Assembly (NCBI RefSeq): GCF_004363235.1
Contig: NZ_SNYW01000007.1
Coordinates: 483,064 to 547,063, forward strand
Reading direction: 5' to 3'
From: Dongia mobilis
GTDB taxonomy: Bacteria > Pseudomonadota > Alphaproteobacteria > Dongiales > Dongiaceae
DNA: 64,000 nucleotides
Both the position numbers and the translations under genes were made by a program. The stretch's first letter is position 1. Every line of letters begins with the position of its first letter. This document shows positions 22,127-38,080 of the stretch, in pieces. The notes under the pieces are model-generated. The model was not told the origin of the DNA. It was given only the letters and a program-made list of their open reading frames with translations, and made no database searches.

Positions 22127-23134
22127 TCACCCCCGGCCCATGGTCCGGTGGCGGAACACCGGGGCGGTGGTCGATTGCTGGCGGTCGGCGCTGGGCGAGC
22201 AGCCGAAATGCCGGCGATAGGTGCGCGAGAAGTTCTCCAGCGAGCCGAAGCCGCTGGAAATCGCGACCTCGGTCACCGGCAGATCGGTCTGCTGCAGCAG
22301 CTTGTGCGCCTTGGCGAGGCGGAATTGCAGGTATTGCTGTGCCATGCTCATGCCCACATGGCGCTGGAAGTGGCGCTGCAACTGGCGTTCCGACAGGCCG
22401 ACCCGGGCCGCGACCTCGTGGCACAGCAGCGGTTCGTCGGTGGTCTTCTGCATGATGCCTAGGGCCTGCTGGACCTTCTGGTTGGCGACGCTGCCAAGCG
22501 CCGTGTCGGGCGCGTTCTGCTCCTGGTGCGGCGGTCGCTGCCGTGCCATCAGGAAATGCTGTGCCACCTCGTCGGCCAGCCCGGTATCGGTCTGTTCCGC
22601 GATCCAGCGCAGCATCATGTCCAGCGTCGTGGTGGCGCCGGCACAGGTCATGCGGCCGCGCCCCATCGTGTAGAGCTGCGTCACCGCCTCGACATCCGGA
22701 TAGCGCTCCTGGAAACCTTCCAGATTGTCCCAATGTACCGTCGCCGGGTGGCCGTCCAGCAGATGCGCCGCCGCCAGGATCTCGCTGCCCGTCTCGATGG
22801 CGCCCATGTCGGCGCCGAAACGGGCCATGCGCCGGAGCCAGTTCAGCAACCGCTGGTCCTCGGCATGTGCCTTCACGTTGAAACTTGCCACCACGATAAC
22901 AGTGCGATAGGTGCCGATCTCGCCCAGGGCACCGTCGACCGGCAGGTGCATCCCGTTGCTGGCGCGCACCGACAGGCCGTCGAGCGACAGGATCGACCAG
23001 CGGAAGATCTGGCGCTGCGCCAGCCAGTTGGCGACGAATAGCGGCTCGATCGCCAGAGCCAGACCCATATTGGAGAATTCCGGCAGCACGACGAAAGCGA
23101 TGTGATGTGGCGGGTCGGCGGTTTGGTTCGGCAT
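22127..23134 (-). CDS. GlxA/GbdR-type AraC family transcriptional regulator
   Basis: The 335-residue protein has an N-terminal DJ-1/PfpI-like sensor domain (HIAFVVLPEFSNMGLALAIE, then GAIETGSEILAAAHLLDG) and a C-terminal AraC double helix-turn-helix (EVAARVGLSERQLQRHFQRH and SSGFGSLENFSRTYRRHFG, about residues 240-320). The architecture is that of GbdR, CdhR and ArgR, activators of quaternary amine or amino acid catabolism. The ATG at 23134 has GGAAAG upstream; an earlier TTG at 23185 is less likely. It is divergent from the Rieske oxygenase operon and is the natural candidate for its activator. Confidence 0.88.
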   Translation of the reverse strand: MPNQTADPPHHIAFVVLPEFSNMGLALAIEPLFVANWLAQRQIFRWSILSLDGLSVRASNGMHLPVDGALGEIGTYRTVIVVASFNVKAHAEDQRLLNWLRRMARFGADMGAIETGSEILAAAHLLDGHPATVHWDNLEGFQERYPDVEAVTQLYTMGRGRMTCAGATTTLDMMLRWIAEQTDTGLADEVAQHFLMARQRPPHQEQNAPDTALGSVANQKVQQALGIMQKTTDEPLLCHEVAARVGLSERQLQRHFQRHVGMSMAQQYLQFRLAKAHKLLQQTDLPVTEVAISSGFGSLENFSRTYRRHFGCSPSADRQQSTTAPVFRHRTMGRG

Positions 23135-23449
23135 GGGAGCTTTCCGTTGGCCCTCGCGGGCAGGCTTGATCCTGCGCAATTCCAACCTGCCAGAGACAGG
23201 TGAATTTGATAATGCTAGCCGAAATTTCGTCTCAAAAAGTCAAAATCAGAAAACAAATCAATAGCGGTATCTCTGTTGATCCTGAAATAAACATTGTATT
23301 TCAATTAGATAAAATTGAACTCGACCTTTGCAAAGCCAGTCGCGGGCTTGACCGGATTTGTCGGATAGACGGGGTCGGCCGCCGCCACAATCGATCCATC
23401 GCCACACCAACAGCACAGCCGGCGCAGATTTGCGCAAAAGAGGGATGCC
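23135..23449. promoter_or_regulatory. AT-rich divergent promoter region of the Rieske operon
   Basis: This 315-bp interval between the GlxA-type regulator and the Rieske oxygenase gene is markedly AT-rich from about 23200 to 23330, in strong contrast to the genes around it. It should hold both promoters and the activator sites. I see no clear long inverted or direct repeat to name as the operator, and no convincing gene. Confidence 0.6.
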
Positions 23450-24601
23450 ATGCTGCACAAGAAGCCCGCCGCCCAGGACCTTGCCTGGGATTACAGCGAC
23501 CCCACCACCGGCGTTTCCCTGCCGGCGCACTTTTTCTATGACCGCCAGGTCTTCGAGGACGAGAAGCAAGCCATCTTCTTCAAGTGCTGGCATGTCGTCG
23601 GCCATGTGAACGAGTTCCGCGAGCCTGGCAATTTCATCTGCCAGGACATCTTCGAGCAGAGCGTCCTGGTCGTCGCCGGCCGCGACGGCGAGATCCGCGC
23701 CTTCCACAACGCCTGCCAGCATCGCGGCAACCGCCTCGTCAACGAGCGGCGCGGCAAGCTGCCCTCGGTGCTGCGCTGCCAGTATCATTCCTGGTGCTAC
23801 GGCCTCGACGGTGCGCTCCGCTCGGCGCCGCGCACCGAATGCCTGAAGAATTTCGACAAGGCGCTCTACGGCCTCAAGCCCGTGCGGCTCGAGATCTTCG
23901 CCAGCTTCGTCTACGTGACTCTCGATGACAAGGCGACGTCTCTGGCCGAGAGCCTGCCGGGGGCCGAGGCCGAAATGCGCCGTTTCCTGCCCGACCTCGA
24001 CAATGTGAAACTGGTCGAAGAGGTCGATGTCATCGTCGACGCCAACTGGAAGGTGATCCAGGAGAACTCGATCGAGGGCTATCACTTCGATCTCTCCGGC
24101 CCGGTGCACAAGCATCTGGCCTCGCTGATCGACTTCAACCAGTACCGCCTGACGCCGCGGGAGCGCTGGTGGACCTATATGGCGCCGCCCAATCCGAACG
24201 CCAAGGAGGCCTATGGCCTGCCGATCGCCGGAGCGACCTGGCAGACCGACTGGTTCTTCAATATCGGTCTCTGGCCCAACACGACCTTCTACTGCTTCCC
24301 CTTCACGGACATGGTCAGCACCTTCATCATGATTCCGCTGGAGCCCGAGAAGTCGCTGCTGCGCTTCGGCTATTACGCGCCGGAGAACCGGCCGACGCCG
24401 GAACTGACCAAATCCGCCATCAAGTGGATGAACCAGGAACTGGGCCCGGAAGACATCATGCTGAATGTCACCAACCAGAAGGGCCTGCATTCCCTCGGCT
24501 TCCAGCACGGCCGCTATCTGATCGACCCGGAGCATCCCAATCAGAGCGAGCATCTGGTGCACCATTTCCACAAGCTCTGCTACCAGGCGATCCGCGAGTA
24601 A
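23450..24601 (+). CDS. Rieske-type non-haem iron oxygenase, large subunit
   Basis: The 383-residue protein has a Rieske [2Fe-2S] domain with C89-x-H91 (NACQHRGN) and C110-x2-H113 (RCQYHSW). The catalytic domain has E209 and H212 in ENSIEGYHF, with the next histidine at 220 (GPVHKHL). It would use electrons from the reductase encoded three genes downstream to hydroxylate or demethylate its substrate. Size and context recall the oxygenases for glycine betaine, carnitine and related quaternary amines, but the substrate is not determinable here. The spacing between the two putative iron histidines is longer than the common H-x4/5-H. It is the first gene of the operon. Confidence 0.88.
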   Translation: MLHKKPAAQDLAWDYSDPTTGVSLPAHFFYDRQVFEDEKQAIFFKCWHVVGHVNEFREPGNFICQDIFEQSVLVVAGRDGEIRAFHNACQHRGNRLVNERRGKLPSVLRCQYHSWCYGLDGALRSAPRTECLKNFDKALYGLKPVRLEIFASFVYVTLDDKATSLAESLPGAEAEMRRFLPDLDNVKLVEEVDVIVDANWKVIQENSIEGYHFDLSGPVHKHLASLIDFNQYRLTPRERWWTYMAPPNPNAKEAYGLPIAGATWQTDWFFNIGLWPNTTFYCFPFTDMVSTFIMIPLEPEKSLLRFGYYAPENRPTPELTKSAIKWMNQELGPEDIMLNVTNQKGLHSLGFQHGRYLIDPEHPNQSEHLVHHFHKLCYQAIRE

Positions 24602-24603
24602 CC

Positions 24604-26262
24604 ATGCCGGCATATGATTACGTCATCGTCGGCGCGGGTTCGGCCGGCTGCGTGCTGGCCGCCCGCCTGACGGAGGATCCGGCCTGCCGCGTCCTGCTGC
24701 TGGAGGCGGGGCCGCGGGACAACAGCTGGAAGATCGACATGCCTTCCGGTATGGGGCAACTCCTCTCCTCGACCCAGTTCAACTGGTCCTATGAGGCAGA
24801 GCCGGAACCCTTCCTTGACAACCGGCGCTTGACCCATCCGCGCGGGCGCGTGCTGGGCGGTTCCTCCTCGATCAACGGCATGGTCTATATCCGCGGCCAT
24901 GCCCGCGACTACGATTCCTGGTCGCAGGCGGGTGCCCGCGGCTGGTCCTATGCCGATGTGCTGCCCTATTTCAAACGGGCCGAGGGGCGCGAGGGCGGTG
25001 GCGACGATTATCGCGGCGACGACGGGCCCCTGCATGTCGCGCGGCCCGATCTCTCGCGCCAGCCGCTCGCCAACGCCTTCATCCAGGCCGGCATCGAGGC
25101 GGGCTATCCCTATACCCCCGACGTCAACGGCCGCCAGCAGGAAGGCTTTGGCGCCATCGACCGCACCACGCGCGCCGGCAAGCGCTGGAGTGCGGCCAGG
25201 GCGTACCTGCATCCGGCGATGGCTCGCCCCAATCTCACTGTGGTCACCGGTGCGCTCGCCCTCGGCATCCGGCTCGAAGGACGGCGCGCATGCGGCGTGG
25301 ACTATGCCGTGAACGGTCGCGCCGAATATGCCGCGGCGGCGCTGGAGGTGATCGTCAGCGGCGGTGCCATCAATTCGCCGCAGCTGTTGCAGCTTTCGGG
25401 CATTGGTGCGCCGGATCACCTGGCCTCGCTTGGGCTCACCGTGAAGCACGCGCTTCCCGGGGTCGGCGAAAACCTCAATGATCATCCGGACATCGTCATC
25501 CAGCATCTGTGCAAGCAGAAGGTGACGCTCTATCCGGTCACGCGGGGGCCGCGCAAGATATTGACGGGCATGCGCTGGTTCCTCGACCAGAAGGGGCCGG
25601 CCGCCACCAATCATTTCGAGGCCGGCGCCTTCATCCGCAGCCGTGCCGGGATCGAGCATCCCGACCTGCAATTGACCTTCATGCCGCTAGCCGTCATACC
25701 GGGCTCGGTCGACAATGTGCCGGACCATGCCTTCCAGGTGCATATCGACCTCATGCGCCCCAAGAGCCTCGGCTATGTAAAGGCCCGCAGCGCCGACCCC
25801 CGGCAGCCGCCTGCGATCCGCTTCAATTATTTGAAGGACCCGCAGGACCGCGCCGATCTCCGCGCCAGCGTGCACCTCACCCGCGAGATCCTGTCGCAGA
25901 AGGCGATGCAGCCCTTCGCCGGCGACGAGATTTTCCCCGGCATCGATGTCCGCACCGATGACGAGATCGACGCCTTCGTCCGGCGCGCGATCGAGACCTG
26001 CTATCACCCGGTCGGCACCTGTAAGATGGGGCGCGCGGAAGACCGGCTCTCGGTGGTCGACGACCAGCTGCGCGTGCATGGGCTTGAGGGCCTGCGCGTG
26101 GTGGATGCCTCGATCATGCCGATCATCGTCAGCGGCAATACCAATGCGCCCACCATCATGATCGCCGAGAAGGCCGCCGACATGATCCGGGGCAGGGCGC
26201 CGCTGCCGGCGCTGAACCTGCCGGTCGGAACCCCCGAAAATTGGGAAAGGGCACAGAGATGA
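24604..26262 (+). CDS. GMC family FAD-dependent oxidoreductase (choline dehydrogenase-like)
   Basis: The 552-residue flavoprotein begins with the ADP-binding loop YVIVGAGSAGCVLAARL and has the GMC signature RVLGGSSSINGMVYIRG, the second signature SGGAINSPQLLQLSGIG, and the C-terminal catalytic block with CYHPVGTCKMG and SGNTNAPTIMIAEKAA. GMC enzymes oxidise alcohols to aldehydes. It starts 2 nt after the oxygenase gene and its stop overlaps the next start (ATGA), so it acts in the same pathway. BetA-like enzymes oxidise choline, which would suit a quaternary amine pathway, but many other substrates are possible. Confidence 0.9.
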   Translation: MPAYDYVIVGAGSAGCVLAARLTEDPACRVLLLEAGPRDNSWKIDMPSGMGQLLSSTQFNWSYEAEPEPFLDNRRLTHPRGRVLGGSSSINGMVYIRGHARDYDSWSQAGARGWSYADVLPYFKRAEGREGGGDDYRGDDGPLHVARPDLSRQPLANAFIQAGIEAGYPYTPDVNGRQQEGFGAIDRTTRAGKRWSAARAYLHPAMARPNLTVVTGALALGIRLEGRRACGVDYAVNGRAEYAAAALEVIVSGGAINSPQLLQLSGIGAPDHLASLGLTVKHALPGVGENLNDHPDIVIQHLCKQKVTLYPVTRGPRKILTGMRWFLDQKGPAATNHFEAGAFIRSRAGIEHPDLQLTFMPLAVIPGSVDNVPDHAFQVHIDLMRPKSLGYVKARSADPRQPPAIRFNYLKDPQDRADLRASVHLTREILSQKAMQPFAGDEIFPGIDVRTDDEIDAFVRRAIETCYHPVGTCKMGRAEDRLSVVDDQLRVHGLEGLRVVDASIMPIIVSGNTNAPTIMIAEKAADMIRGRAPLPALNLPVGTPENWERAQR

Positions 26263-27020
26263 GCATTGCCGCCGCGCGCGCGCCCTGGGAAGCGCCCGAG
26301 ATCGCCACTGCCCGCATGGAACTGGCAGCAGCGTTCCGCTGGTTCGCGCGCCTCAACATGCATGAATCGGTCGCCAACCATTTCAGTGTTGCGATATCGG
26401 ATGATGGCAGGCATTTCCTGATGAATCCGCGCGGCATCCATTTTTCCCGCGTGAAGGCCGGCGACCTGCTCCTGCTTGATGCCGAGGACAGATCGGCGCT
26501 GGATCGTCCCGACGCACCGGACCCGACCGCCTGGTTCATCCATGCCCGCCTTCATCGCCTCTTGCCGCAGGCGCGCTGCCTGATGCATCTCCATCCCAAA
26601 TACGCGACGGCGCTCTCCGCGCTGGACGACAGCACGGTCCTGCCCATCGACCAGAACACCATGCGCTTCCATGGTCGCGTCGCCTATGACGAGGCCTTTG
26701 GCGGCATGGCGCTCTCCAACGAGGAGGGCGACCGGCTGGCCGGGGTGATCGGCAATTGCGGCGTATTGATGATGGGCAATCACGGCGTGCTGGTGGCGGC
26801 GCCCACCATCGCCCAGGCCTTCGACGAGATGTACTACTTCGAGCGTGCCTGCGAGACGCTGATCACCTGCTATCAGACGGGGAAGAAGCTGCGCGTGGCG
26901 AGCGACAACGTGGCCCGCGTGACAGCCAGCCAGTGGGCTGACTATGTCCAGCTCTCCTTCGACCATCTGCGCGAGGTGATGAGGATCCTCGATGCCGAGG
27001 AACCCGATTATCGGGACTGA
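26259..27020 (+). CDS. Class II aldolase/adducin family protein
   Basis: The 253-residue protein has the metal-binding histidines of class II aldolases (CLMHLHPKYATAL near residue 108 and MGNHGVLV near residue 170). These enzymes use zinc for retro-aldol or decarboxylation reactions on hydroxy- or sugar-acid compounds. ATG at 26259 overlaps the GMC gene stop and has GGGAAAGGG upstream, so it is preferred over the TTG at 26241. It is embedded between the GMC and reductase genes. The exact reaction is unknown. Confidence 0.85.
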   Translation: MSIAAARAPWEAPEIATARMELAAAFRWFARLNMHESVANHFSVAISDDGRHFLMNPRGIHFSRVKAGDLLLLDAEDRSALDRPDAPDPTAWFIHARLHRLLPQARCLMHLHPKYATALSALDDSTVLPIDQNTMRFHGRVAYDEAFGGMALSNEEGDRLAGVIGNCGVLMMGNHGVLVAAPTIAQAFDEMYYFERACETLITCYQTGKKLRVASDNVARVTASQWADYVQLSFDHLREVMRILDAEEPDYRD

Positions 27021-27024
27021 AAAG

Positions 27025-28047
27025 ATGGAACAGGCCGGCTTCTATCCATTGACCGTGCGATCGGTGGTGCCGGAAACGGCTGATGCGGCCTCGCTGGTGT
27101 TCGACACGCCGGCAGATGACGTCTTCGACTATCGTGCCGGCCAATACCTCACCCTGCGCCTGCAGATCGCTGGCCGGCCGGTGCTGCGCTGCTATTCCAT
27201 GTCGAGCGCGCCTGTGGCCGGTGAGCCGCTAGCGATCACGGTGAAGCGCGTTGCCGGCGGTGTTGTCTCGAACTGGCTCATCGACCATGTTCGCCCCGGC
27301 GACCGGATATTGGCGCGGCCGCCCAGCGGCACCTTCGTGCTGGCTCCAGAGCCGCGACCCTTGTTGCTTTTCGCCGGCGGCAGCGGCATCACCCCCGTCT
27401 TCGCCATCCTGCGCCAGGCATTGGCCGGCGATGGTCCGGCAATCCGCTTCTTCTATGCCAGCCAATCGCCCGAGGCCGAGATTTTCCGCACCGCCCTCGA
27501 CCGGGTCCAGGCGGCGCATGCCGACCGGCTCACGCTCCACCGCCACTATGATTCCCGTGATGGCCATCCCGACATGGCCCGGCTGGCCGATTTTGCTGTC
27601 GGAACCGGTGATGCGATCGCGGAGTCAGCGATTGCCTATGTCTGCGGTCCCGCCCCCTTCATGAACAATGTCGAGGCGGCGCTGGCGCAGGTCGGTCTCG
27701 ATCCCGCGCGAATCCACAGCGAGCGTTTCGTCATGCCGGCACCGGAAGCGGTACCGGCCCTGGGTGATGCCGCCAGCCTGACGATAGCGATCGATTGCGG
27801 CGTCGGCATCCGCCAAATATCCTGCCGCGCCGACCAGACCATCCTGGCGGCAGCGCTCGACCAGCGCCTCCCGGTGCCGTGGTCCTGCGGCCAGGGCATC
27901 TGCGGCGCTTGCATCGCGGAATTGACGGCCGGTTCGGTCGCCATGCCGCAAAGCGACCTTCTGACGGCGGAGGAACGCAAGGACGGCCTTATCCTGCTCT
28001 GCCAGGCGAGACCTAGGGGACCTGACTGCCGGGTGCGCTTGGTATAG
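27025..28047 (+). CDS. Ferredoxin reductase with C-terminal [2Fe-2S] domain
   Basis: The 340-residue protein has a flavin domain (LRCYSMSSAP), an NAD(P)H domain (LLFAGGSGITPVFAIL, YVCGPAPFM) and a C-terminal plant-type ferredoxin domain with cysteines in SCGQGICGACIAEL and LLCQA. This is the one-protein reductase type that feeds electrons to Rieske oxygenases such as GbcA/B or vanillate demethylase. I chose ATG at 27025, just after the aldolase stop; ATG at 26992 would overlap the aldolase gene by 29 bp. It is the natural partner of the oxygenase at 23450. Confidence 0.9.
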   Translation: MEQAGFYPLTVRSVVPETADAASLVFDTPADDVFDYRAGQYLTLRLQIAGRPVLRCYSMSSAPVAGEPLAITVKRVAGGVVSNWLIDHVRPGDRILARPPSGTFVLAPEPRPLLLFAGGSGITPVFAILRQALAGDGPAIRFFYASQSPEAEIFRTALDRVQAAHADRLTLHRHYDSRDGHPDMARLADFAVGTGDAIAESAIAYVCGPAPFMNNVEAALAQVGLDPARIHSERFVMPAPEAVPALGDAASLTIAIDCGVGIRQISCRADQTILAAALDQRLPVPWSCGQGICGACIAELTAGSVAMPQSDLLTAEERKDGLILLCQARPRGPDCRVRLV

Positions 28048-28143
28048 GGCTGACGATCCGGGGCCGGGCTGCGCCAAGGCTGCGGTGGACAGGCGGCTGC
28101 GCGGCAGCTAAAAGCGCCCCGGAAGCGAACCGGAGCGAATGTC

Positions 28144-29046
28144 ATGTCGCATGCAGAACTGGATGGCCGCGTGGTGGCCGCGGCGATGCTGGCCGAAACC
28201 CGCAAACAGGTGGCCGACCTCAAGGCCGGCGGCTGGGCGCCGAAACTGTGCTCGATCTCGGTCGGCGATGTCAGTGCGGTGCAGCTTTATGTCCGCAACC
28301 AGAAGCGCAATGCCGGGAAGGCCGAGATCCAGTTCGAGGAACTGCTTTTTCCTGCCGACATTCACCAGGAACAGCTGCTGGCCGCGATCCACGGCATGAA
28401 TGCCGACCCGCGCGTCACCGGCATCATCCTGCAGCGACCGGTGCCGAACCACCTTTCCATCAAGCAATTGCAGGCCGCCATCCACCCGCTCAAGGATGTC
28501 GAGGGCATGCACCCGGCCTCGATCGGCAACATCGTCTATAACGAGCTGGAACTTGGCCCCTGCACCGCCATGGCCTCGGTCGAGCTGCTGAAACAGACCG
28601 GCCTCGGTCTGGCCGGGCTCGAAGTGGTGGTGGTCGGCCATTCCGAGATCGTCGGCAAGCCGATCGCCTTCCTGCTGATGGCCGAGGGCGCCACCGTCAC
28701 GGTCTGCCATCATATGACGCGCAACCTCGCGGTTCATTCCCGCCGCGCCGACGCGCTCTTCGTCGCCGTCGGCAAGCCCGGCCTCATCACCGCCGAGATG
28801 GTGAAGCCGGGTGCCGCCGTGATCGATATCGGCATCAACCAGGTGACGCTGCCGGACAATTCCACCCGGGTCGTGGGTGATGTCGATTTCGATTCCGTCG
28901 CCAAGATCGCCGGCTGGATCACGCCGGTGCCGGGCGGCGTCGGCCCGGTCACGGTTGCCGTGCTGATGCGCAATGCCGTCATCGGCGCCACCCGGCAGAA
29001 GCGCCATTACGAAAGCCTGTTCGGCCCCGCCCAGGCCGGAATCTAA
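28144..29046 (+). CDS. Divergent FolD-like methylene-tetrahydrofolate dehydrogenase/cyclohydrolase
   Basis: The 300-residue protein aligns by eye along its whole length with FolD, including KDVEGMHPASIGN, VVVVGHSEIVGKPIAFLL and WITPVPGGVGPVTVAVL. FolD interconverts 5,10-methylene- and 10-formyl-tetrahydrofolate. Two of three catalytic positions differ: the motif Y-V-x-x-K reads YVRNQK (Gln at the Lys site, Lys one position later) and the Asp in KDVDG is Glu120; Gln97 (ILQRPVP) is kept. It lies 96 nt after the ferredoxin reductase gene on the same strand, a position that fits the handling of one-carbon units released by a Rieske demethylase. Whether it is the cell's only FolD is unknown. Confidence 0.82.
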   Translation: MSHAELDGRVVAAAMLAETRKQVADLKAGGWAPKLCSISVGDVSAVQLYVRNQKRNAGKAEIQFEELLFPADIHQEQLLAAIHGMNADPRVTGIILQRPVPNHLSIKQLQAAIHPLKDVEGMHPASIGNIVYNELELGPCTAMASVELLKQTGLGLAGLEVVVVGHSEIVGKPIAFLLMAEGATVTVCHHMTRNLAVHSRRADALFVAVGKPGLITAEMVKPGAAVIDIGINQVTLPDNSTRVVGDVDFDSVAKIAGWITPVPGGVGPVTVAVLMRNAVIGATRQKRHYESLFGPAQAGI

Positions 29047-29059
29047 GCGTCTCCGGCCG

Positions 29060-30223
29060 TTATTCCGCGGCCAGCGCGGCGCCGGTGTCTCGCCGGCGGA
29101 TGGCAAGGTCAAGGCGCTTGCCGCTGTGGAGGATACCCATCAGCGGCAGGCGCTGCGACGATTCCGCGGCGGCGTCCTGCGCCACATTGTCCTTGGCGAT
29201 ATGGGGCTTCAGCGCGTCGCCGGCCATGGCTCGGCCAAGCCGGATCGTCTCGACGCCCAGTGGCTTCAGCAGATCGGCGCCATAGAGGAACTCGCAGGGC
29301 AGCATGGCGGCCAGGAACTTGAACTTGCCGTCGCGCACCCCACCCTTCAGCAGTGAGCAGGCATAGCCCATCTCGTTGCGATAGAGCGCCAGCGGCGCCG
29401 TCTGCGGCTCGCTCACATGGAAGATGCCGAGCAGCAGCCCGCCTTCCAGCGTGAGCGACACCTCATGCTCGGCGAGGTCGACCGCATCCAGGCTGAAGCG
29501 CCGGTTGTGATAGGCCGCCATCCCGGCATCTCTCGCCGCCGCGAACAGCGTTGCGGCATCGATCACCTCAGCCGCGGCAAAGTGATCGGGATCGATCGCC
29601 GGCGGCAGGCCGGCAGTTGGCATTTCCTGCCAGCGCCCGGCAGCGAGGCGCTGGATCGCCTCGGCTGCCAGATCTGCCACCAGGCCGGTAACGACGGGGC
29701 GCGCATAGTGTCCCTGGTCGGCATAGAAGCCCGCATCGCTCACCACCTCGCGGCCGAACCGGCGCATGAGTGCGCGGGAAAGATCGATGCAATCGGTACC
29801 GTAGTAGTCGGAGATGTAATGAATGCCGGCATCGATGGCCGGCACGCTACTGAGCCAGGACCCGTTCCGCGCCCCGAAGATCAGGGTACAGATCCGCAGT
29901 TTCGGGTTGCGGGCGAGGGCATGGCGGATGATGCCCTCATAGAGTCGCGCCCAGTGCCTGAATTGCCGTCTTTCGTCGCCATAGATGAAGGCATCGTTGA
30001 TGACATATTCGATCAGCAGCAGGTCGGATTGCTCCAGCGCCGCGCTGGTCTTCAGCTGATAGAGGCCGAAGGCGCTGGTGGTGCCGCCGATGGCCAGATC
30101 GGCAACGATCTCCAGCGGGACGCCGCGCTGCGCCGACATGGTGACGAGCTGGCCGAGATAGCCCGGCTGCATCACCGTATTGGACCCGCCGATTATCGTG
30201 GTTCGCAGGGCTGACCGCATCAT
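29060..30223 (-). CDS. SGNH hydrolase family protein
   Basis: The 387-residue protein has the SGNH blocks in order: GGSNTVM near the N-terminus with the nucleophile Ser, ADLAIGGTTS, YVINDAF with the conserved Asn, and DQGHYA with the Asp-x-x-His pair at about residue 170. The last 170 or so residues form a separate beta-rich domain I do not recognise. No signal peptide is visible. It is the last gene of the glycan operon and its start overlaps the preceding stop (TGATG). A role in adding or removing acyl groups on the glycan is a reasonable inference. Confidence 0.75.
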   Translation of the reverse strand: MMRSALRTTIIGGSNTVMQPGYLGQLVTMSAQRGVPLEIVADLAIGGTTSAFGLYQLKTSAALEQSDLLLIEYVINDAFIYGDERRQFRHWARLYEGIIRHALARNPKLRICTLIFGARNGSWLSSVPAIDAGIHYISDYYGTDCIDLSRALMRRFGREVVSDAGFYADQGHYARPVVTGLVADLAAEAIQRLAAGRWQEMPTAGLPPAIDPDHFAAAEVIDAATLFAAARDAGMAAYHNRRFSLDAVDLAEHEVSLTLEGGLLLGIFHVSEPQTAPLALYRNEMGYACSLLKGGVRDGKFKFLAAMLPCEFLYGADLLKPLGVETIRLGRAMAGDALKPHIAKDNVAQDAAAESSQRLPLMGILHSGKRLDLAIRRRDTGAALAAE

Positions 30224-31428
30224 CAGGCCGCCATCTGCGCCAGGGCCTCGCCCTCGGTCATCGCCATGCCGGCCTCGGTCAGGTGGCGGTGGAAGTTCCT
30301 GAGGCGGGTGCGATAGACGTCATGGAAGGCGGCGATGCGCTGTTCGGACAGGTACTCCGCCATGAACGCCTCAATGCCCATGGTGCAGGCCTTGTCGACA
30401 GATGTATGTGGTACGCCGAAGAACTCGCTGAGCTCCTTGACGCGCAGATCCTTGAACAGGATCGCCGTGGGCAGCCCGACCTGCAGTGCCGCGACGCCGC
30501 CATGGAAGCGGTCGCCGATGAAGATGTCGTGCCAGCCATAGCATTGCCGCCACGCCTCGACCGAATCGAAATAGAAATACTTGTCGAACGGCGCCCGGGC
30601 GCCGATCGCCTCGCTCATCAGCGGCTCGATCACCGATTGCCTGAGCTGGCTCCGGGAATCGTCGAAGAAGTCGCGGCCCTGCAACTCGTCCTTGAACAGG
30701 AAGATCTCGTCCTGGAAGACATAGGAGCATTTCTGTCCCTCGAAGAACTTTGCCAGCTGCTTGCCGCGCACCGATTTCTTCTGCAGGTAGCCAGCCGTGA
30801 CGAAGCGGTAGTCCGCAGGCTTGCCCGTGGGCGCCCTGATGCCGAGGATGTTCTCCGGATAGAGCATCATGCTGGGGCAGCCCAGGGCCGTCGGATTTTT
30901 GAAACCCATCTTCTTCAGCCAACCCTCGGTATAGGTGCCTCGTACGCCGAAAACACGCGCCTTCTCGTCGATCCAGCGCAGCATCTCGACGGTGGCCGAC
31001 TCCAGGACGCTCAGATCCTCCATTTCGTTCTGCATGCCCATGCCGAGGACGATCACCGGAATCTTGATCTGCTCCAGTACCTTCAGCAGCGAGGCATGGT
31101 TGAGGTTGGGTCGGATCTCGTTCGCCATGGGCAGTACCAGGGCGTCGAAATTGTTGTTGAGCAGATCCATCGCCTCCTTCGAGCCCTTATAGGCGTCATG
31201 GAGGACATGCACGCTCAGCATGCAGGAATGATTCCGGTCATAGTCGAAGATGCGGCACGAGCCTTCGCCGATCAGCATGTTGCCCTTGTTCGAGGTCAGG
31301 TAGAAATTCCGCGACAGCGTGCTGAAGCTCGTGCTGTTCGAGCGCGGCAGGCCCTCCGAGAAGGGCAGGCCCGGATGATAGCGATAGCGCGTATCGGCGG
31401 GCTGGCGGCCGAAGCAAAGGCGTTTCAT
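30223..31428 (-). CDS. Polysaccharide pyruvyl transferase family protein
   Basis: The 401-residue protein carries the family block FIGDRFHGGVAALQVGLPT near residue 330, with NKGNMLIGEGS early on. Members transfer pyruvate from PEP to sugars in exopolysaccharides, giving acidic ketals; some members have other roles. The ATG at 31428 is preceded by a strong GGAGGAAAC site and overlaps the preceding gene's stop (ATGA). It sits between a secreted glycosidase-like protein and an SGNH hydrolase, which supports glycan modification. Confidence 0.82.
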   Translation of the reverse strand: MKRLCFGRQPADTRYRYHPGLPFSEGLPRSNSTSFSTLSRNFYLTSNKGNMLIGEGSCRIFDYDRNHSCMLSVHVLHDAYKGSKEAMDLLNNNFDALVLPMANEIRPNLNHASLLKVLEQIKIPVIVLGMGMQNEMEDLSVLESATVEMLRWIDEKARVFGVRGTYTEGWLKKMGFKNPTALGCPSMMLYPENILGIRAPTGKPADYRFVTAGYLQKKSVRGKQLAKFFEGQKCSYVFQDEIFLFKDELQGRDFFDDSRSQLRQSVIEPLMSEAIGARAPFDKYFYFDSVEAWRQCYGWHDIFIGDRFHGGVAALQVGLPTAILFKDLRVKELSEFFGVPHTSVDKACTMGIEAFMAEYLSEQRIAAFHDVYRTRLRNFHRHLTEAGMAMTEGEALAQMAA

Positions 31429-32591
31429 GGGTTGTTTCCTCCGTCGATAGGCAGATGGGTATCGTTGGGCTGATGGGCGTTGCCACCGCGTGGCAGGTTC
31501 CTGGTTAGCTCGGTCGGCTGGCCACAACGCTTGAGGCTGAAGCCCGCATCCTCGTTCCAGTCGTAATAGAACCCGACCGGCACGCGCGTCGCGTTCTCGG
31601 CGCGGTCGAGATAGCCGAAGAGCGGCTGCATCAGCGCGATACGCCGGGCATCGTCCGGCGCGCATTCCTCCTTGGGCAACGCCGCACCGAATTCCGTGAT
31701 CCAACAGGGACGCAGCGCGAAAGGCTCCCGGCCGCAACTGTCGAGCTGCCGCGCGATCATCTGGTCGCGATCGCCGGTGACCTGGGCGGCGCGCAGCGGC
31801 TCGTAGAGGTGTATGCCGATGGCATCCACCCTGGTGAACAACCCGCGCCCGGCCACCCAGGCATTGAAGGCTTCCGGCACGACATAGGTCGCACCGACCC
31901 GGTGGATGAAGTCGGTGTTGATGTCGGCAAGGCCCGCCGTCACCAGGCGGATATGGGAAAGACGGGGATTTGCGGCCAGCATCTGCTGGGTGCGCTCGAT
32001 CGTCGCCGCATAGAGATCGAGGCCGCGCTCGACGCGACGCCGGGTTTCGGCCGGCCAAGCGGCCGGGCTGTCCACCACCTGGCCCCCATCCAGAACCGGG
32101 AGATCGCCGTTATAGCCCGACCAGTTGGGCTCGTTGCCGATCTCCAGTCCGATCACCGGCAGATCCGCCTCGGCGATACGTTCGAGCAACAGACCAAGGC
32201 GCGCATCGAAGCGGGCGAGATCGATCTGGCTGAGGCCGTAGGCCGCGAAGAAATGCCGGTTCTTCGGCCGCGGCTGGGCGCCTGCCGCCGCCACCGCGCC
32301 GTCGATCAGCGGTACGGTGACGAGGACTTCAAGCCCGGCCTGTTTCGCCGCGTCAAGGGCGCGGAAGGTCCCCTCGACCGGGTTCTTGTAGCCGATACGG
32401 ACCGAGCCGAAGCCGGCTGCCGCGATCTCGGCCATGGTGGCCCGAATGGCGGCGGGCTTTGACCAGGCGATATTGGCGGCGGCGACGCCGGTGACGAAGC
32501 CGGGCGCCTCGCTCGCCGCCACCGGCATCGCCAGCAGCATCGCCAGCAGCGCGGCGAGCATCCGCAGGCGGTATGGGTTGCCGCCGCTCAT
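31425..32591 (-). CDS. Secreted glycoside hydrolase-like (beta/alpha)8 protein
   Basis: The 388-residue protein has a signal peptide (hydrophobic MLAALLAMLLAMPVAASEA after a short basic stretch) and a TIM-barrel-like glycosidase pattern: GLEIGNEPNWSG with the expected acid/base Glu at the end of strand 4, VDAIGIHLYEP, and CWITEFGAALP with the candidate nucleophile Glu. It resembles GH5/GH39-type clan A enzymes without a clear family. ATG at 32591 overlaps the glycosyltransferase stop (ATGA). In a polysaccharide operon such an enzyme may trim or release the polymer in the periplasm. Confidence 0.75.
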   Translation of the reverse strand: MSGGNPYRLRMLAALLAMLLAMPVAASEAPGFVTGVAAANIAWSKPAAIRATMAEIAAAGFGSVRIGYKNPVEGTFRALDAAKQAGLEVLVTVPLIDGAVAAAGAQPRPKNRHFFAAYGLSQIDLARFDARLGLLLERIAEADLPVIGLEIGNEPNWSGYNGDLPVLDGGQVVDSPAAWPAETRRRVERGLDLYAATIERTQQMLAANPRLSHIRLVTAGLADINTDFIHRVGATYVVPEAFNAWVAGRGLFTRVDAIGIHLYEPLRAAQVTGDRDQMIARQLDSCGREPFALRPCWITEFGAALPKEECAPDDARRIALMQPLFGYLDRAENATRVPVGFYYDWNEDAGFSLKRCGQPTELTRNLPRGGNAHQPNDTHLPIDGGNNP

Positions 32592-35305
32592 GGAACCGGA
32601 CTCGAGGTTACGGTTCGGCGTAGCTCGATTTCCTCCGACCTGAAGGGAAACCAAGCCCCAAGCCGGCTCATGAGCGGCGACAGGTTTTCGGCCCAGGTGA
32701 CGCCGGCGGCCCTTTGCGCCGCACCGTTCCCGAGCCGATCCAGCAGATGGGGGTCGCCGAGCAGCCGCTCCAGCGCCTCCACCAGTTCCTGGGCGATGGC
32801 GGCATCATCCGTCGCCCGCAGCAGCAATCCATCCACCTCGTGCTCGACCAACTCGGCGACAGCGCCGACATCGGTCACCACCGGCACGCAGCCGACGCGC
32901 TGTGCCTCCAGGATGGTGAGGGGCGCCCCCTCCCAGCGCGAGGTTAGCAGCAGCACGTCTGCCTTCACGAAGGCCTCGGTCAATCCGCGATTGCCATAGA
33001 TCGCCGGCTCCAGCGTGATGCCGAGATCGGCGAACTGCCGGGTCCAGGAACCGCGCGAGTCGTCGGCCAGCACCTCGGAGCCGACCAGGCGGAACTCCAC
33101 CGGCAAGTTGCGGCGCTTGACCAGCCTGGCGGCGGCGTAGAGCCGCTCGATCCCCTTCTGCGAATCCAGGCGGCCGAGAAAAAGCAGGCGGAGCCGCTCC
33201 GGCATCCCGCGCCGGGCACGCTGCTTCAGCGCCTGGCGCAGCTCGCTCTCGCGCATCTCGTAGGAAGGGGCGTTTGGCACATGCAGCAGCTTTGCCTCCG
33301 GCACCCCCATCCCATGGAACCAATCCGCCATCTGCGCCGAGCAGGTGAGGATGAGGTCGTAGATATGTTCGTAGGCGAGGCCGACATAGGGATGCCCGGC
33401 AGTACGGCCTGCCCGAGTCCGATCCAGCACATGGACATGGGAGAGAATCTTGACGCCGCGCCGGCGCAATTCGCCTAGCACCGCATTGACCGGCGCCACC
33501 TGGCAATTGATCACCACATCGAGGCCGGCGAGGAGTCCGAGCAGCCGCTCGAGCTTCGCCCCCTCGTCATGGGCCATCAGGATGTCATGGCCGGCGAAAT
33601 GATGGGGCCCGCCCCACAGGTCGTAATCGTCCATCAGGAAATTGATGCTGGCAAAATCCGCCGGATCAAAGACGATCTCGCAGCTGGCCTTGCCGAGAAT
33701 ATAGAGATGGACCTCGTAGCCCTGCCGCGTCATCTCGCGTGCCATGGCATAGGCCACCTTCTCGACCCCGCCGAAGGAGCCGATCGGCAGGAGGAAGCCG
33801 ATCCGCGGCCGGCGGCTGCCGGGTGGCGTCACGCGCGGCATCACCGGCTCGGCGCCCAGTGCCTCGCGCAGCAGCCGGTAATGGTTCCTGACTGGCGGAA
33901 AATAGCCGCCGCGCCAGGTCCAGCGTTCGTGATGCGACCGGCGATAGCTGGAATCGCGAAAGGCGGCCAGGGTGGAGAGCAGGGAATTGCTGGCCGACAG
34001 CACGGCGCGGTCGAGGTCGAGCGCCTTGAACGGCGCGCGCACCACCAGTTCCACCGTGTCCGGCGAAGGCCGGCGATTGCGGATCGAGCTGATCCACTCG
34101 TCGGAGATGTCCTCGACGCAGGCCTTGAAGAGGTCGGTGGAGCAGACCCAGGCCTGCGGCCGCTTGCCGAGATAGTCGGCACTGCCGGCGCTGTTCCGTT
34201 CCAGCGAGATGCGGCTGGCATCATGTTCCAGACGGATGGCGACCAGGTGATGCTTCTCGGCGAGGCGCTCGGCGTGCCACAGGACGTTGTGCAGCACGCC
34301 GATCCGGCGCATCGCCTCGAAATGCGCCGGTGCCGCCCATAACATGAAGGGCGGGGTACCGTGGGAATCGGGCTCGGCTTGTGCTGCCCAGTAGCGCTCG
34401 ATGAAGGTCTCGAGATCGATGCGCGGATGCGGTGCCGCAGGATCGGTGAACAGCGAGACAGCATAGGTGCCGGTGGCGATGGCCGCGAAGCGCGGGCTTT
34501 CCTCATGCTCCCAGCGGGTCAACGTATCCGGTGCAAACAACGCCTTATGCTTGTCCCTGATATAGGACATGATTGCCGCCTTGGTGCGGTGCGAATCGCG
34601 CAGCATGCTTTCCGCGCGCTGGCGGTAGTCGAAGCCGAAGAAGGGGTGGTTGGCCCCGGTGAAGCCGGCGGCGATGCATTGCAGCCAGAACTCCCAATCC
34701 TCGAAGCCGGCGCGCATGGTCTCGTCGAAGCGGATGCCGGCATCGAACACCTCGCGCGCCACCATTGATCCGGCTTCGCAGATATTGTCGAAGGTGATGT
34801 GCAGCAGACGCGAATAGGGCGCGTGATAGGCCCCATTCCAGGCAATGCCGAACTTGTCGATATTGGGATAGACCCAGGAGATCTCCGGCCGCGCCTTCAG
34901 GAACGTAAAGACGTCCTGCATGGCCGGCGGGGTGATGCGGTTGTCGGCATCGAGGAAATAGATCGCCTCGATCGAGGGAAACATCTCGAGCGCGAAGTCG
35001 ACCCCGTAATTGCGTGCCGAACTGAGACCGCCATTGGGCTTGCGCAGGTAATGGACGTTGTCATGTGCCAGCGCATAGGCGGTGCCGATGGTCCGCGTTT
35101 CCGGGAACGGGCAGCCGTCATCAACGATGATGACGGCGATGCCGAAATCAGCCTGCTGTGCCAGCGCCGATTCCACCGCTTCCGTCAGCAGGACGGAATG
35201 CTTGTAGACCGGGATAACGATGCCGAGGCGCGGGCACTCGACCGCTTCGCGGGTCGCGGGTGCGAGGGCTGCATCGCCTGCCATGCCGGTGGTGCCGGTC
35301 GCCAT
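32588..35305 (-). CDS. Two-domain glycosyltransferase (GT2 plus GT4 fusion)
   Basis: The 905-residue protein has an N-terminal GT2 domain (GIVIPVYKHSVLLTEAVESA, then IYFLDADNRITPP with the DxD, and FEDWEFWLQCIAAG) at about residues 25-260. A central region of about 230 residues is of unclear type. A C-terminal GT4 domain follows (RIGFLLPIGSFGGVEKVAYA, LLFLGRLDSQKGIERLYAAA, and SRWEGAPLTILEAQ with the E-x7-E pair) from about residue 510. Two sequential sugar transfers by one protein are likely. ATG at 35305 has GAGGGAG upstream and lies 13 nt after the preceding stop. Confidence 0.85.
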   Translation of the reverse strand: MATGTTGMAGDAALAPATREAVECPRLGIVIPVYKHSVLLTEAVESALAQQADFGIAVIIVDDGCPFPETRTIGTAYALAHDNVHYLRKPNGGLSSARNYGVDFALEMFPSIEAIYFLDADNRITPPAMQDVFTFLKARPEISWVYPNIDKFGIAWNGAYHAPYSRLLHITFDNICEAGSMVAREVFDAGIRFDETMRAGFEDWEFWLQCIAAGFTGANHPFFGFDYRQRAESMLRDSHRTKAAIMSYIRDKHKALFAPDTLTRWEHEESPRFAAIATGTYAVSLFTDPAAPHPRIDLETFIERYWAAQAEPDSHGTPPFMLWAAPAHFEAMRRIGVLHNVLWHAERLAEKHHLVAIRLEHDASRISLERNSAGSADYLGKRPQAWVCSTDLFKACVEDISDEWISSIRNRRPSPDTVELVVRAPFKALDLDRAVLSASNSLLSTLAAFRDSSYRRSHHERWTWRGGYFPPVRNHYRLLREALGAEPVMPRVTPPGSRRPRIGFLLPIGSFGGVEKVAYAMAREMTRQGYEVHLYILGKASCEIVFDPADFASINFLMDDYDLWGGPHHFAGHDILMAHDEGAKLERLLGLLAGLDVVINCQVAPVNAVLGELRRRGVKILSHVHVLDRTRAGRTAGHPYVGLAYEHIYDLILTCSAQMADWFHGMGVPEAKLLHVPNAPSYEMRESELRQALKQRARRGMPERLRLLFLGRLDSQKGIERLYAAARLVKRRNLPVEFRLVGSEVLADDSRGSWTRQFADLGITLEPAIYGNRGLTEAFVKADVLLLTSRWEGAPLTILEAQRVGCVPVVTDVGAVAELVEHEVDGLLLRATDDAAIAQELVEALERLLGDPHLLDRLGNGAAQRAAGVTWAENLSPLMSRLGAWFPFRSEEIELRRTVTSSPVP

Positions 35306-35318
35306 GGATCGCACTCCC

Positions 35319-36923
35319 TCAGCCCTGCAGCAGGGCATGGAGGTTGAGGAACCGGGCCCAGGCAAAGTCGTGATTGCCGGGCTCGACCATCCGCGTCGCG
35401 AGATAGAGGTCTCTGGGCGTGTCATCGCCCGCCATGAACAGCGAGGCAAAGCGCGGCTGCTTGCCCGGCACCCTTACCCAGCCGGAAAAACCCTCGCCGG
35501 CGATCGGTTCGGCGACGCCGCTCAGCAATGGCATGACGCGTCCCTCGTCGCCGGTCGCCAGCAGCGAGAACTCGACATCGCGCGACTGCGCATGGTCGAC
35601 CAACAGGTTTGCGGAAAGGCGAAGCGTGCCGGCGGGACAGCCCCGGGGCAGCCTGGCGATGGTCATGCCGAAGGCCGGCGGATGGCATGAGACGATGCGC
35701 TCCTCATCCAGATAGGCGACGCCGTCAAACGGGCTGGCATCGGCATCGAGCCGCGCCTGTTGCACGTTGCGCAGCAGGTCGGCCGGCAGCGGCCGCTCCA
35801 GCAGGCCGCTGCCCTGGCCACCTTGTCCGCTGCCGGCCTGCGGCGCCACGCCGGCCGGGTTGGGCGGGGCCACGCCGGGCAGGCCAACGAAGATGCGCAT
35901 CGCGAGCGAGGAAGCGGCGATCGATTGCTGGAGGTCGGGATCCTGCAAGCGGAAGAGGTCGAGCGGCTGCGCGCCGCCCAGCGACAGCGCGGGCAGCCTG
36001 GCGCGGTCGCCTTCCACCGCGATCGACAGCCGCAGGGTGCGGCGCAGGCCGGCAAGCGCCTGGCGCAGGCCCAGCGTGGTCCAGCCGGCGGGCAGGTCTG
36101 CGGCCGGCACCGACCATTGTTCGATCTGGCGTCCATCCTCGATCGATTGCAGCGTCACGTTGAGCGTGGCGTCGCTTCGCGGCTGCGCCTTGGCGACATG
36201 GAGGGCGATGGCACTGACGCCGAGGCTGGCCACGGGCAGGATCTGCGAGACCCTGCCGTTGGTCGCCATCTCGAGGACATTCGGCGTCGGCGAAGCGGCG
36301 CCTTGTTCCACGAGGCCCGCTTCGTCGCCAGGCGGGGGATTGATGAAGGCGCATTCGAAGGGCTGCAATCCGTGCCGGTCGATAAAGCTCTCCAGCGCCG
36401 CGAACCGGTTCTGCAGGTCCTCGTTTTCCTGCCGCAATTGGGCGAGCTGCCGGGCAAGCGCCGTATTGCTGCCGGCCTGGGCGCTCAGGATCTCCTGAAA
36501 ATTGCCGAGCAGATAGGCCGACAATGCGGCGCCGTCATCCGCCTGGGCCAGGAACGCATCCGGCGCCGCACCAATGCGCTGCAGCCAGGAAGCGGCGCGG
36601 GTCATCAGGTCAAACTCGTTCCGGTCGAAACCGACAATGCCGAGCAGCAGCAGCGGCGGCTCAACGAGGCGCCGGTCGCTGCCCGTCTCGTCTCGCACGA
36701 GCAGGTGGTCGTCGGCCACCCGCTTCACCTTGGCGAAAACGCAGCCTTCTCCGGCCAGCGCCTTTGCCCACTCGCCGAGCCGCCCGCCATAGAGAATGAG
36801 CGGCTTGCGCGACATCAGGCGCTGCGGCCGATCCGGGCCGATGATAACCCGCGCCGGCGGCTTTTCCGGACGGATCTTGTCGTGGCGAACGTCCTGTGGC
36901 CGAGCTGTTGCTGCGCCGATCAC
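35319..36923 (-). CDS. Uncharacterised coiled-coil protein of glycan loci
   Basis: The 534-residue protein is not one I can assign to a function; it may belong to the uncharacterised DUF6212 group, from memory only. Residues 30-130 form a globular start (PLILYGGRLGEWAKALAGEG); about 150-185 is a predicted coiled coil (LARQLAQLRQENEDLQNRFA); the rest looks beta-rich with two jelly-roll-like halves separated by a Gly/Pro/Gln linker (GSGQGGQGSGLL). No signal peptide or membrane span is seen. A GTG at 36923 with AAGGGAG upstream is the start. It heads the operon with the GT2-GT4 fusion, so a role in glycan assembly or its control is likely. Confidence 0.65.
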   Translation of the reverse strand: MIGAATARPQDVRHDKIRPEKPPARVIIGPDRPQRLMSRKPLILYGGRLGEWAKALAGEGCVFAKVKRVADDHLLVRDETGSDRRLVEPPLLLLGIVGFDRNEFDLMTRAASWLQRIGAAPDAFLAQADDGAALSAYLLGNFQEILSAQAGSNTALARQLAQLRQENEDLQNRFAALESFIDRHGLQPFECAFINPPPGDEAGLVEQGAASPTPNVLEMATNGRVSQILPVASLGVSAIALHVAKAQPRSDATLNVTLQSIEDGRQIEQWSVPAADLPAGWTTLGLRQALAGLRRTLRLSIAVEGDRARLPALSLGGAQPLDLFRLQDPDLQQSIAASSLAMRIFVGLPGVAPPNPAGVAPQAGSGQGGQGSGLLERPLPADLLRNVQQARLDADASPFDGVAYLDEERIVSCHPPAFGMTIARLPRGCPAGTLRLSANLLVDHAQSRDVEFSLLATGDEGRVMPLLSGVAEPIAGEGFSGWVRVPGKQPRFASLFMAGDDTPRDLYLATRMVEPGNHDFAWARFLNLHALLQG

Positions 36924-37072
36924 GCTGAACTCCCTTGCGATACGAGATATGCGAACAGGTCGCGTTGCGAAAGAACGGGCCGGCTTGTTGATGTCAGCCC
37001 GGCCGCCCTGCCGCCTTGCGTTGCCGGAAAGAATTGGCCCGGGCCCGGCAAGTAAAAAGACGACAACCGACC

Positions 37073-37095
37073 AAAAAAAGACGGCATCATCGCCG
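37073..37095 (-). terminator. Weak terminator after rfbA
   Basis: On the minus strand a short CGGC/GCCG stem (37092-37095 with 37082-37085) is followed at once by seven T residues (37079-37073). The stem is only 4 bp, so efficiency is doubtful. It lies about 80 nt beyond the rfbA stop, between the nucleotide-sugar operon and the glycosyltransferase operon. The remainder of 36924-37174 shows no gene. Confidence 0.4.
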
Positions 37096-37174
37096 ACCCC
37101 TGTCGTTGATTCACTGTATCGGCAGCCGCATGTGCCCGGATGTTGCAGTATTCATGGCTGGTCATCTTTGGTCC

Positions 37175-38080
37175 TCAACCGGCCATGGCGCGCAATTGCG
37201 CGCCGTCAATCTCGATATCCTGCAGCAGCGACTTGAGGTAGCGGCCATAGGCGCTGGCCGGCGCGCGTGCGGCGATGCGGGCGAAACTGTCGACATCGAT
37301 GAAGCCTTGGGTTAGCGCGATCTCCTCCAGGCAGGCAATCTTGACGCCCTGCCGCGTCTCCAGCGTGCCGACAAACTGCGTGGCGGCGCTGAGCGATTCC
37401 GGCGTCCCGGTATCGAGCCAGGCGAAACCGCGGCCAAGCCGGTCCACCACCAGCTCCCCAGCCGCAAGATAGCGGGCATTGAGGTCCGTGATTTCCAGTT
37501 CGCCGCGGCTGGAGGGGCGCAGCTCGGCGGCAAAATCGGACGCCCTGCCGTCATAGAAATAAAGGCCGGTGACCGCCCAGTTGCCCGGCGGGTGAATCGG
37601 CTTTTCAACAATGGCAAGCGGCCGCCCGTCAGCACCAAGGTCGACCACGCCATAGCGCTCCGGGTCCTCGACGCGGGTGGCAAAGATATGGGCGCCGCGG
37701 GTGAGGCGCGCGGCCTGGTTGAGGCGGCGGCTGAGCCCGCTGCCGAAGAACAGGTTGTCGCCGAGAATGAGCGCGCTTGGCCGGCCGCCAACAAAATCAC
37801 GGCCGATCACATAGGCCTGCGCGATTCCCTCGGGCCGCTCCTGGACGGCATAGCGGATGGAAAGGCCCCAGCGACTGCCGTCGCCCAGCAATTCGTCATA
37901 GCGGTCGACATCCTTTGCCGTGGTGATCAGCAGGATTTCGCGGATTCCTGCCAGCATCAGCGTGGCGATGGGATAATAGATCATCGGCTTGTCGTAGATC
38001 GGCAGCAACTGCTTGGTGATGGTCGCGGTCATCGGATAGAGGCGCGAGCCGTTGCCGCCGGCAAGAACGATGCCCTTCAT
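37175..38080 (-). CDS. rfbA: Glucose-1-phosphate thymidylyltransferase
   Basis: The 301-residue enzyme makes dTDP-glucose from glucose-1-phosphate and dTTP. It starts MKGIVLAGGNGSRLYPMT, with the nucleotide loop G-G-x-G-S-R-L, then KQLLPIYDKPMIYYP and LILGDNLFFG, all diagnostic of RmlA. ATG at 38080 overlaps the rfbD stop (ATGA). It completes the minus-strand set galE-rfbC-rfbD-rfbA; no rfbB is present in the window. Confidence 0.95.
   Translation of the reverse strand: MKGIVLAGGNGSRLYPMTATITKQLLPIYDKPMIYYPIATLMLAGIREILLITTAKDVDRYDELLGDGSRWGLSIRYAVQERPEGIAQAYVIGRDFVGGRPSALILGDNLFFGSGLSRRLNQAARLTRGAHIFATRVEDPERYGVVDLGADGRPLAIVEKPIHPPGNWAVTGLYFYDGRASDFAAELRPSSRGELEITDLNARYLAAGELVVDRLGRGFAWLDTGTPESLSAATQFVGTLETRQGVKIACLEEIALTQGFIDVDSFARIAARAPASAYGRYLKSLLQDIEIDGAQLRAMAG

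Follow-up and report, generated by a model that had tools for sequence, protein, structure and literature searches.

In soils and seas, the breakdown of quaternary amines sets free trimethylamine, formaldehyde, and nitrogen. Few Rieske oxygenases are known to act on such compounds. The closest described systems are carnitine monooxygenase, the oxygenase and reductase pair CntAB (YeaWX), and the choline route comprising BetAB, GbcAB, and the regulator GbdR; on the side of class II aldolase-fold proteins, the relevant enzymes are NovR, TqaM, and pyruvic oxime dioxygenase. We analyzed a stretch of 64,000 nucleotides from Dongia mobilis (NCBI RefSeq assembly GCF_004363235.1, contig NZ_SNYW01000007.1, positions 483,064 to 547,063; hereafter the window, numbered from its first letter) that contains an AraC-family regulator gene divergent from genes for a Rieske oxygenase (RO), a choline-dehydrogenase-like oxidoreductase of the GMC family (GMC), a "class II aldolase" (ALD), and a ferredoxin reductase (RED). 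Our analysis supports, with a probability of roughly 0.6, a catabolic module that is inducible, has probably spread by horizontal transfer, and acts on a quaternary ammonium alcohol resembling choline, though probably not on choline itself. The conserved module, with its unusual oxygenase, is apparently undescribed; no open-licence paper was found that describes the gene set or joins a Rieske oxygenase, a class II aldolase, and a choline dehydrogenase. A genomic island of Arctic SAR11 resembles it in bringing together genes for choline dehydrogenase, aldehyde dehydrogenase, class II aldolase, and betaine ABC (ATP-binding cassette) transport. It differs in that the accessible text of its source (PMC12421898) names the oxygenases as gamma-butyrobetaine dioxygenases and mentions no Rieske oxygenase, a comparison made by description only.

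The RO gene (23450..24601, forward strand) is separated by 2 nucleotides from GMC (24604..26262, forward), whose stop codon is overlapped by the ATG of ALD (26259..27020, forward); RED (27025..28047, forward; alternative start at 26992) follows, and the regulator (22127..23134, reverse) is divergent from RO. Pfam and NCBIfam models bear out these gene names at the family level: HTH_18 and DJ-1_PfpI for the regulator, Rieske and Ring_hydroxyl_A for RO, the N and C GMC_oxred families for GMC, Aldolase_II for ALD, and FAD_binding_6, NAD_binding_1, and Fer2 within the single protein RED, the probable electron donor of RO. The original prediction, made by a model from the letters and open reading frames, had named this gene set followed by a FolD-like gene, and open reading frames and families confirm it; its span began at 23135, the intergenic base adjoining the regulator ATG, and the regulator itself falls outside that span.

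Resemblance to the choline route is evident in the GbdR-like regulator, the BetA-like GMC, choline-type transport, the pairing of a Rieske oxygenase with a reductase, and, in some loci, a gene like that for betaine aldehyde dehydrogenase (BADH). Unlike the components of that route, however, the regulator, oxygenase, dehydrogenases, and reductase all score below curated cut-offs, and ALD is an extra component. The top NCBIfam model for the regulator is GbdR (NF052371; 267.1 bits, cut-off 480), and RO scores 159.8 bits against the GbcA model (NF058607; cut-off 670), GMC 712.9 bits against BetA (TIGR01810; cut-off 732.1), and RED 159 bits against GbcB (cut-off 500); BADH is the top model for the aldehyde dehydrogenase of one related locus, L129 (597 bits, cut-off 668.6).

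Co-occurrence of the genes was tabulated at 33 other loci, using matches at E 1e-20 or better together with identity thresholds and flanking sequence that extended to roughly 10 kb at most (14 kb for a single locus, less at contig ends); L058 was dropped as lying on the same contig as L021, leaving 32. The regulator is present in 31 of the 32, the remaining locus (L052) being a 5,076-base contig, and GMC in 30; in L013 the contig stops after the first 92 GMC residues, and the one GMC of L052 is 43% identical and oppositely oriented. ALD is found in 24. The loci span alpha-, beta-, and gammaproteobacteria and show at least three gene orders. The recurrence of AraC, RO, GMC, and usually ALD together at these 32 loci is more than chance. 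The fullest example, in Chromohalobacter (L062), is a single uninterrupted series of RO, a short-chain dehydrogenase/reductase (SDR), a binding protein, GMC, a reductase, an aldehyde dehydrogenase, ALD, and AraC.

A conserved five-gene order, the check that the original prediction had proposed, was rejected: the content of the four-gene core is kept across loci, its order varies, and neither FolD nor RED is conserved with it. The reductase is replaceable: one of some kind occurs in six of the 32 loci and belongs to one of two types, the first in L021, L062, L063, and L158 and the second in L050 and L064 (each including its own query source). Neither is close kin of the window RED, whose own type exceeded the thresholds at just two loci, L054 and L055, where it lies 6 kb from RO and is 36–38% identical. 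The set of RO, GMC, ALD, RED, and FolD was found in no other locus examined. The expectation of a pathway with no known counterpart thus stands to the extent that the pathway is apparently undescribed, and falls as regards a fixed five-part set.

Transport and aldehyde oxidation genes recur near the core. Choline/betaine ABC genes are present in 12 of the 32 loci, a choline-type binding protein in nine (and, on the cluster map, in L062), and ChoV and ChoW types accompanied by a protein of the OpuAC type in three (L017, which is the query source, L021, and L049); a BADH-like aldehyde dehydrogenase gene is present in eight. OpuAC-type protein was detected in module loci, and three transport models score above cut-off (TIGR03414, 476 versus 379 bits; TIGR03416, 375 versus 363; TIGR01186, 341 versus 327). 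Since a transporter is linked to a recurring module, the substrate should be findable through the ChoX-type binding protein.

The predicted fold of RO (AlphaFold2 model, mean pLDDT, the predicted local distance difference test, 93.3) is closest to CntA, which accounts for all 13 best chains (template-modeling score on the query 0.82–0.88) and also heads the solved relatives in sequence comparison (E 1e-57; about 29% identity). Residues C89, H91, C110, and H113 align with the Rieske ligands of CntA, and the bridging glutamate E209 and the 2-His-1-Asp site (H212, H220, and D335) are present in all 27 aligned module ROs, so that the features of group V oxygenases are in place. CntA loci (L196 and L197) likewise join the oxygenase with a reductase and an aldehyde dehydrogenase, as do some module loci; GMC, ALD, and AraC partners were not seen in these two stretches.

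The module ROs depart from CntA at the iron site and in the pocket. Their iron histidines are spaced by seven residues (H-x7-H in 27/27, and also in the outliers L022 and L065), whereas 16 other aligned rows, including those of CntA, YeaW, and GbcA, have H-x4-H. The column of CntA Tyr203 holds Ser in 26 of the 27 (Ser207 in the window) and Asn in one, and those of Cys206 and Cys209 hold Gly and Phe throughout; of the CntA pocket residues, Tyr225 and Phe258 are unchanged, and Asn270, Tyr295, Tyr315, and Phe319 give way to Tyr, Phe (one row has Val), Met, and Leu. All three GbcA rows have Asn at the 203 column. The available portions of two sources divide group V into Va (CntA type), with Tyr or Phe at this position, and Vb (GbcA and Stc2 type), with Asn and with relatives that demethylate betaines (PMC7948474), and restrict the Cys pair at 206/209 to some group V members (PMC10952381). 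The window RO has none of Tyr/Phe, Asn, or C-x-x-C. With these residues absent and the H-x7-H spacing in their place, RO plausibly works like a group V enzyme yet belongs in neither subgroup, and its clade would extend the group past its two published subgroups. In a tree that left out row L187 (one in-frame stop) and was built without Stc2, OxyBAC, and plant choline monooxygenase, the 27 module rows fall together (support 0.98). Identity of RO with GbcA or CntA was rejected on model score and signature residues.

GMC is likewise a paralog rather than a copy of its namesake. It passes the wider model PRK02106 (791 bits, cut-off 605), and among solved structures it is closest to an oxygen-dependent choline dehydrogenase; the GMC proteins of 23 loci form a clade (support 0.999) that contains none of the 10 BetA rows, in a tree where L180 is an unreliable outgroup row with no flavin adenine dinucleotide (FAD) motif on either strand. 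The Glu of a FEAG motif, which may correspond to Glu312 of choline oxidase, is kept in the GMC rows printed, with Asp in L062. The window genome has a true BetA elsewhere, near choline-type transport genes, and this together with the tree led us to reject the possibility that GMC is plain BetA. One side observation concerns a genus mate (L138, G002:C208), in which a relative of RED (44% identity) lies beside another choline-dehydrogenase-like GMC (51%), with no RO detected.

These results bear on another explanation, namely that the module supplies a further set of isozymes for choline or glycine betaine itself, under regulation of its own, in which GMC would make betaine aldehyde and RO would attack betaine or choline. 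GMC falls narrowly under the BetA cut-off, choline-type binding proteins are linked to the module, and no RO in the window genome scores above the GbcA cut-off, which would leave betaine use there without its known first enzyme. Against this, BetA scores above cut-off in all nine other module genomes tested as well as in the window genome, and GbcA does so in three of the nine (G100, G176, and G411) and falls below in six; full-length relatives of 427–546 bits are present in G012 (with one in-frame stop), G003, and G013. The RO of G176 is 95% identical to that of a Pseudomonas locus and the RO of G411 97% identical to that of a Chromohalobacter locus; G100 is congeneric with G176. The module is therefore additional to the choline route, and the three genomes that carry it alongside both true BetA and GbcA indicate that its target is probably a choline-like alcohol and not choline. 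RO, moreover, is far below the GbcA cut-off and carries the signature residue of neither Va nor Vb, and the known choline route has no place for ALD. We consider isozymes of the choline route unlikely.

ALD passes only PRK07490, a model named hypothetical protein (368 bits, cut-off 260). Five structure models were obtained, the best with pLDDT 91.9 and the other four with 70–80. A Foldseek search with the ALD model ranked 3ocr (function unknown) first, followed by NovR and TqaM; 4xxf, a yeast protein named fuculose-phosphate aldolase, was 11th. Pyruvic oxime dioxygenase ranked below it, ahead of adducin, the decarboxylase 2z7b, and fuculose aldolases from bacteria. A profile built from 17 ALDs gave 128 bits for 3ocr, 120 for NovR, 102 for 4xxf, 91 for TqaM, 87 for adducin, 63 for pyruvic oxime dioxygenase, 51 for another bacterial fuculose aldolase, and about 40 for Escherichia coli FucA.

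The His triad expected of a zinc class II aldolase (H110, H112, and H175) is present in all 17 ALDs, and the column of the catalytic Glu73 of FucA is Ala91 in all 17; this column was set through alignments with NovR, 4xxf, and 3ocr and the FucA motif, not through alignment with FucA. ALD resembles NovR, TqaM, and pyruvic oxime dioxygenase in its fold and His triad and in having no Glu at the Glu73 column (NovR alignment); it is about 20–24% identical to them, and those enzymes serve other pathways. Pyruvic oxime dioxygenase, in the available part of PMC11841055, lacks Glu73 in sequence, has Glu164 near that place, and binds iron through three His. ALD is more likely to be decarboxylase- or oxygenase-like than an aldolase, and by its example some of the proteins annotated as "class II aldolases" may turn out to be oxygenases or decarboxylases. 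A paralog of ALD (51–59% identity) is present elsewhere in the window genome and in G001, G003, G006, and G013; in the window genome (L202, G000:C1:400727-401440), G001, and G003 (L203 and L204), the paralog is 58% identical and adjoins an M24 protein and an acyl-CoA synthetase. The top model for the M24 protein, typed in L204, is the dimethylsulfoniopropionate lyase DddP (395 bits, cut-off 600).

Together these components suggest a route of which every step, including the order, is predicted. The compound would be imported and sensed via the AraC protein; GMC would oxidize its alcohol to an aldehyde, and an aldehyde dehydrogenase, encoded in the cluster in the eight loci mentioned above, would yield the acid. 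RO, with electrons from RED in the window and from different reductases at other loci, may then hydroxylate a carbon next to the nitrogen, an attack that would release formaldehyde or trimethylamine, and ALD, a predicted His-triad metal enzyme that resembles NovR more than FucA, would remove or oxidize a carbon of the remaining fragment. Choline is a weaker candidate for the substrate because the tested hosts keep BetA and some keep GbcA; all parts are compatible with a longer or hydroxylated choline. Homocholine, whose catabolism has reportedly been studied in Pseudomonas sp. A9, is a guess based on physiology. More speculatively, it is possible that RO represents a third quaternary-ammonium subgroup with a rebuilt iron site and that, with an aldolase-fold iron oxygenase as a second, unrelated O2-dependent enzyme of the module, it takes apart a choline-like alcohol by an undescribed route, perhaps starting from homocholine, passing via beta-alanine betaine, and ending in trimethylamine and a C3 fragment; we put this forward tentatively and think it rather less likely to be right than wrong.

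Several observations weigh against a quaternary-amine module of this kind. Neither a transporter nor an aldehyde dehydrogenase was found among the module genes of the window by open reading frames and family scan, and the residue not kept at the 203 column of RO is the ammonium-binding Tyr of CntA. The GMC of L021 sits outside the GMC clade. ALD is absent from L011, L012, L013, L014, L018, L049, L051, and L052, of which the L013 and L052 contigs end early. Adducin (not known to have enzymatic activity), 3ocr, and 4xxf score near or above the iron oxygenases against ALD, so that kinship of ALD with NovR does not prove its chemistry. The view of ALD as a module-only clade was not upheld: paralogs L202–L205 are interspersed with the module ALDs in the tree, which means that ALD is not exclusive to the module. 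Many of the loci are also closely related, the ROs of five Pseudomonas loci and plasmid L129 being 93–98% identical, and the gene-tree distance correlations of 0.79–0.89 (23 loci) are not corrected for the species tree.

A substrate such as a methylated sugar or another non-quaternary methyl compound, with the likeness to quaternary-amine enzymes a matter of mere descent, would accord with the loss from RO of both the ammonium-binding Tyr and the Cys pair, with SDR genes in some loci, and with two genus mates (L011 and L012) in which a LIV-type rather than a choline-type ABC transporter adjoins the module. The linkage of choline/betaine ABC genes in 12 of the 32 loci argues the other way, as does the joint occurrence of BetA-, BADH-, and GbdR-like partners, and we judge such a substrate improbable, somewhat more so than choline isozymes. 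The LIV-type transporter in these genus mates is accompanied by a Peripla_BP_6 binding protein, and a histone-deacetylase-fold protein and a MalT-like protein lie near the module (typed in L011).

RO at 56% identity or more is present in 12 of 41 genomes (the window genome, counted here, and 40 relatives): in 11 of 16 genus and family relatives and in none of 24 relatives at class level. An even sample of 397 genomes from the phylum gave five RO matches at E 1e-90 or better, two of them in the window genome and a genus mate, leaving three in the other 395. Hosts among the best 80 of at least 590 loci, which is not a census, include Limibaculum, Rhizobium, Inquilinus, Pseudomonas, Chromohalobacter, and Burkholderia, and the module is also carried on plasmids of P. 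aeruginosa and Caballeronia. Because occurrence is rare and patchy, the distribution suggests spread by horizontal transfer; the plasmid setting of L129 is in line with this. L129 is plasmid pF045_1 of P. aeruginosa, on which the module lies near transposon and mercury-resistance genes. L055, titled Mycobacterium sp. KBS0706, has an RO 94% identical to that of Inquilinus limosus (L054) and is perhaps a mislabeled genome.

The FolD gene of the window (FolD2; 28144..29046, forward; family THF_DHG_CYH) begins 96 nucleotides past the end of RED, and the original prediction had made it a pathway partner, with N- or O-demethylation by the oxygenase releasing formaldehyde that FolD would pass on to formyl-tetrahydrofolate. 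The gene order of the window favors this, as does the demethylation of betaines by group Vb relatives, described in the part of PMC7948474 cited above. FolD is found, however, in none of the 32 other module loci within the flanks searched, and its neighbors vary between relatives. The FolD2 type is present in seven of 12 genus and family relatives searched, at 88–91% identity in five genus mates, 81% in G012, and 67% in G008, and in the six of these seven that bear the module it lies on a different contig from RO. In four genus mates it is flanked by members of one shared pair of gene clusters, which in one of these mates were typed as AsmA and peptidase C69; it comes after BenE in G012 and after NnrS and nitrate-reductase-gamma genes in G002. 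Positions 28142–38086 of the window are syntenic with G002 (L134), and this block begins at FolD, placing there the junction between module and block.

The window genome holds a second FolD gene, on C1, that is 41% identical. All eight FolD2 rows have Gln at the column of the usual cyclohydrolase Lys, versus Lys in the three FolD1 rows compared (L033 and L036 were left out), and the FolD2 motif is KDVEG versus KDVDG. The catalytic Lys of FolD (human Lys56) presumably serves the cyclohydrolase step; FolD2, without it, is perhaps a dehydrogenase-only FolD. We judge FolD2 a bystander rather than a module member, and reject it as a pathway partner on the strength of the 32 loci, the differing neighbors, the Gln for Lys, and the synteny junction; formaldehyde transfer through it is very improbable. 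What survives of the predicted methylated alcohol-amine pathway is its substrate class: a quaternary amine is plausible, given an RO nearest CntA, a GMC paralogous to BetA, and ABC and BADH-like genes in some relatives. Upstream, the divergent intergenic region (23135..23449) is, from its position, the probable control region of the module. A four-sequence alignment of this region showed no clear operator motif; scans for promoters in it (one found, 1.0 expected) and for terminators (six found, 4.1 expected) were uninformative.

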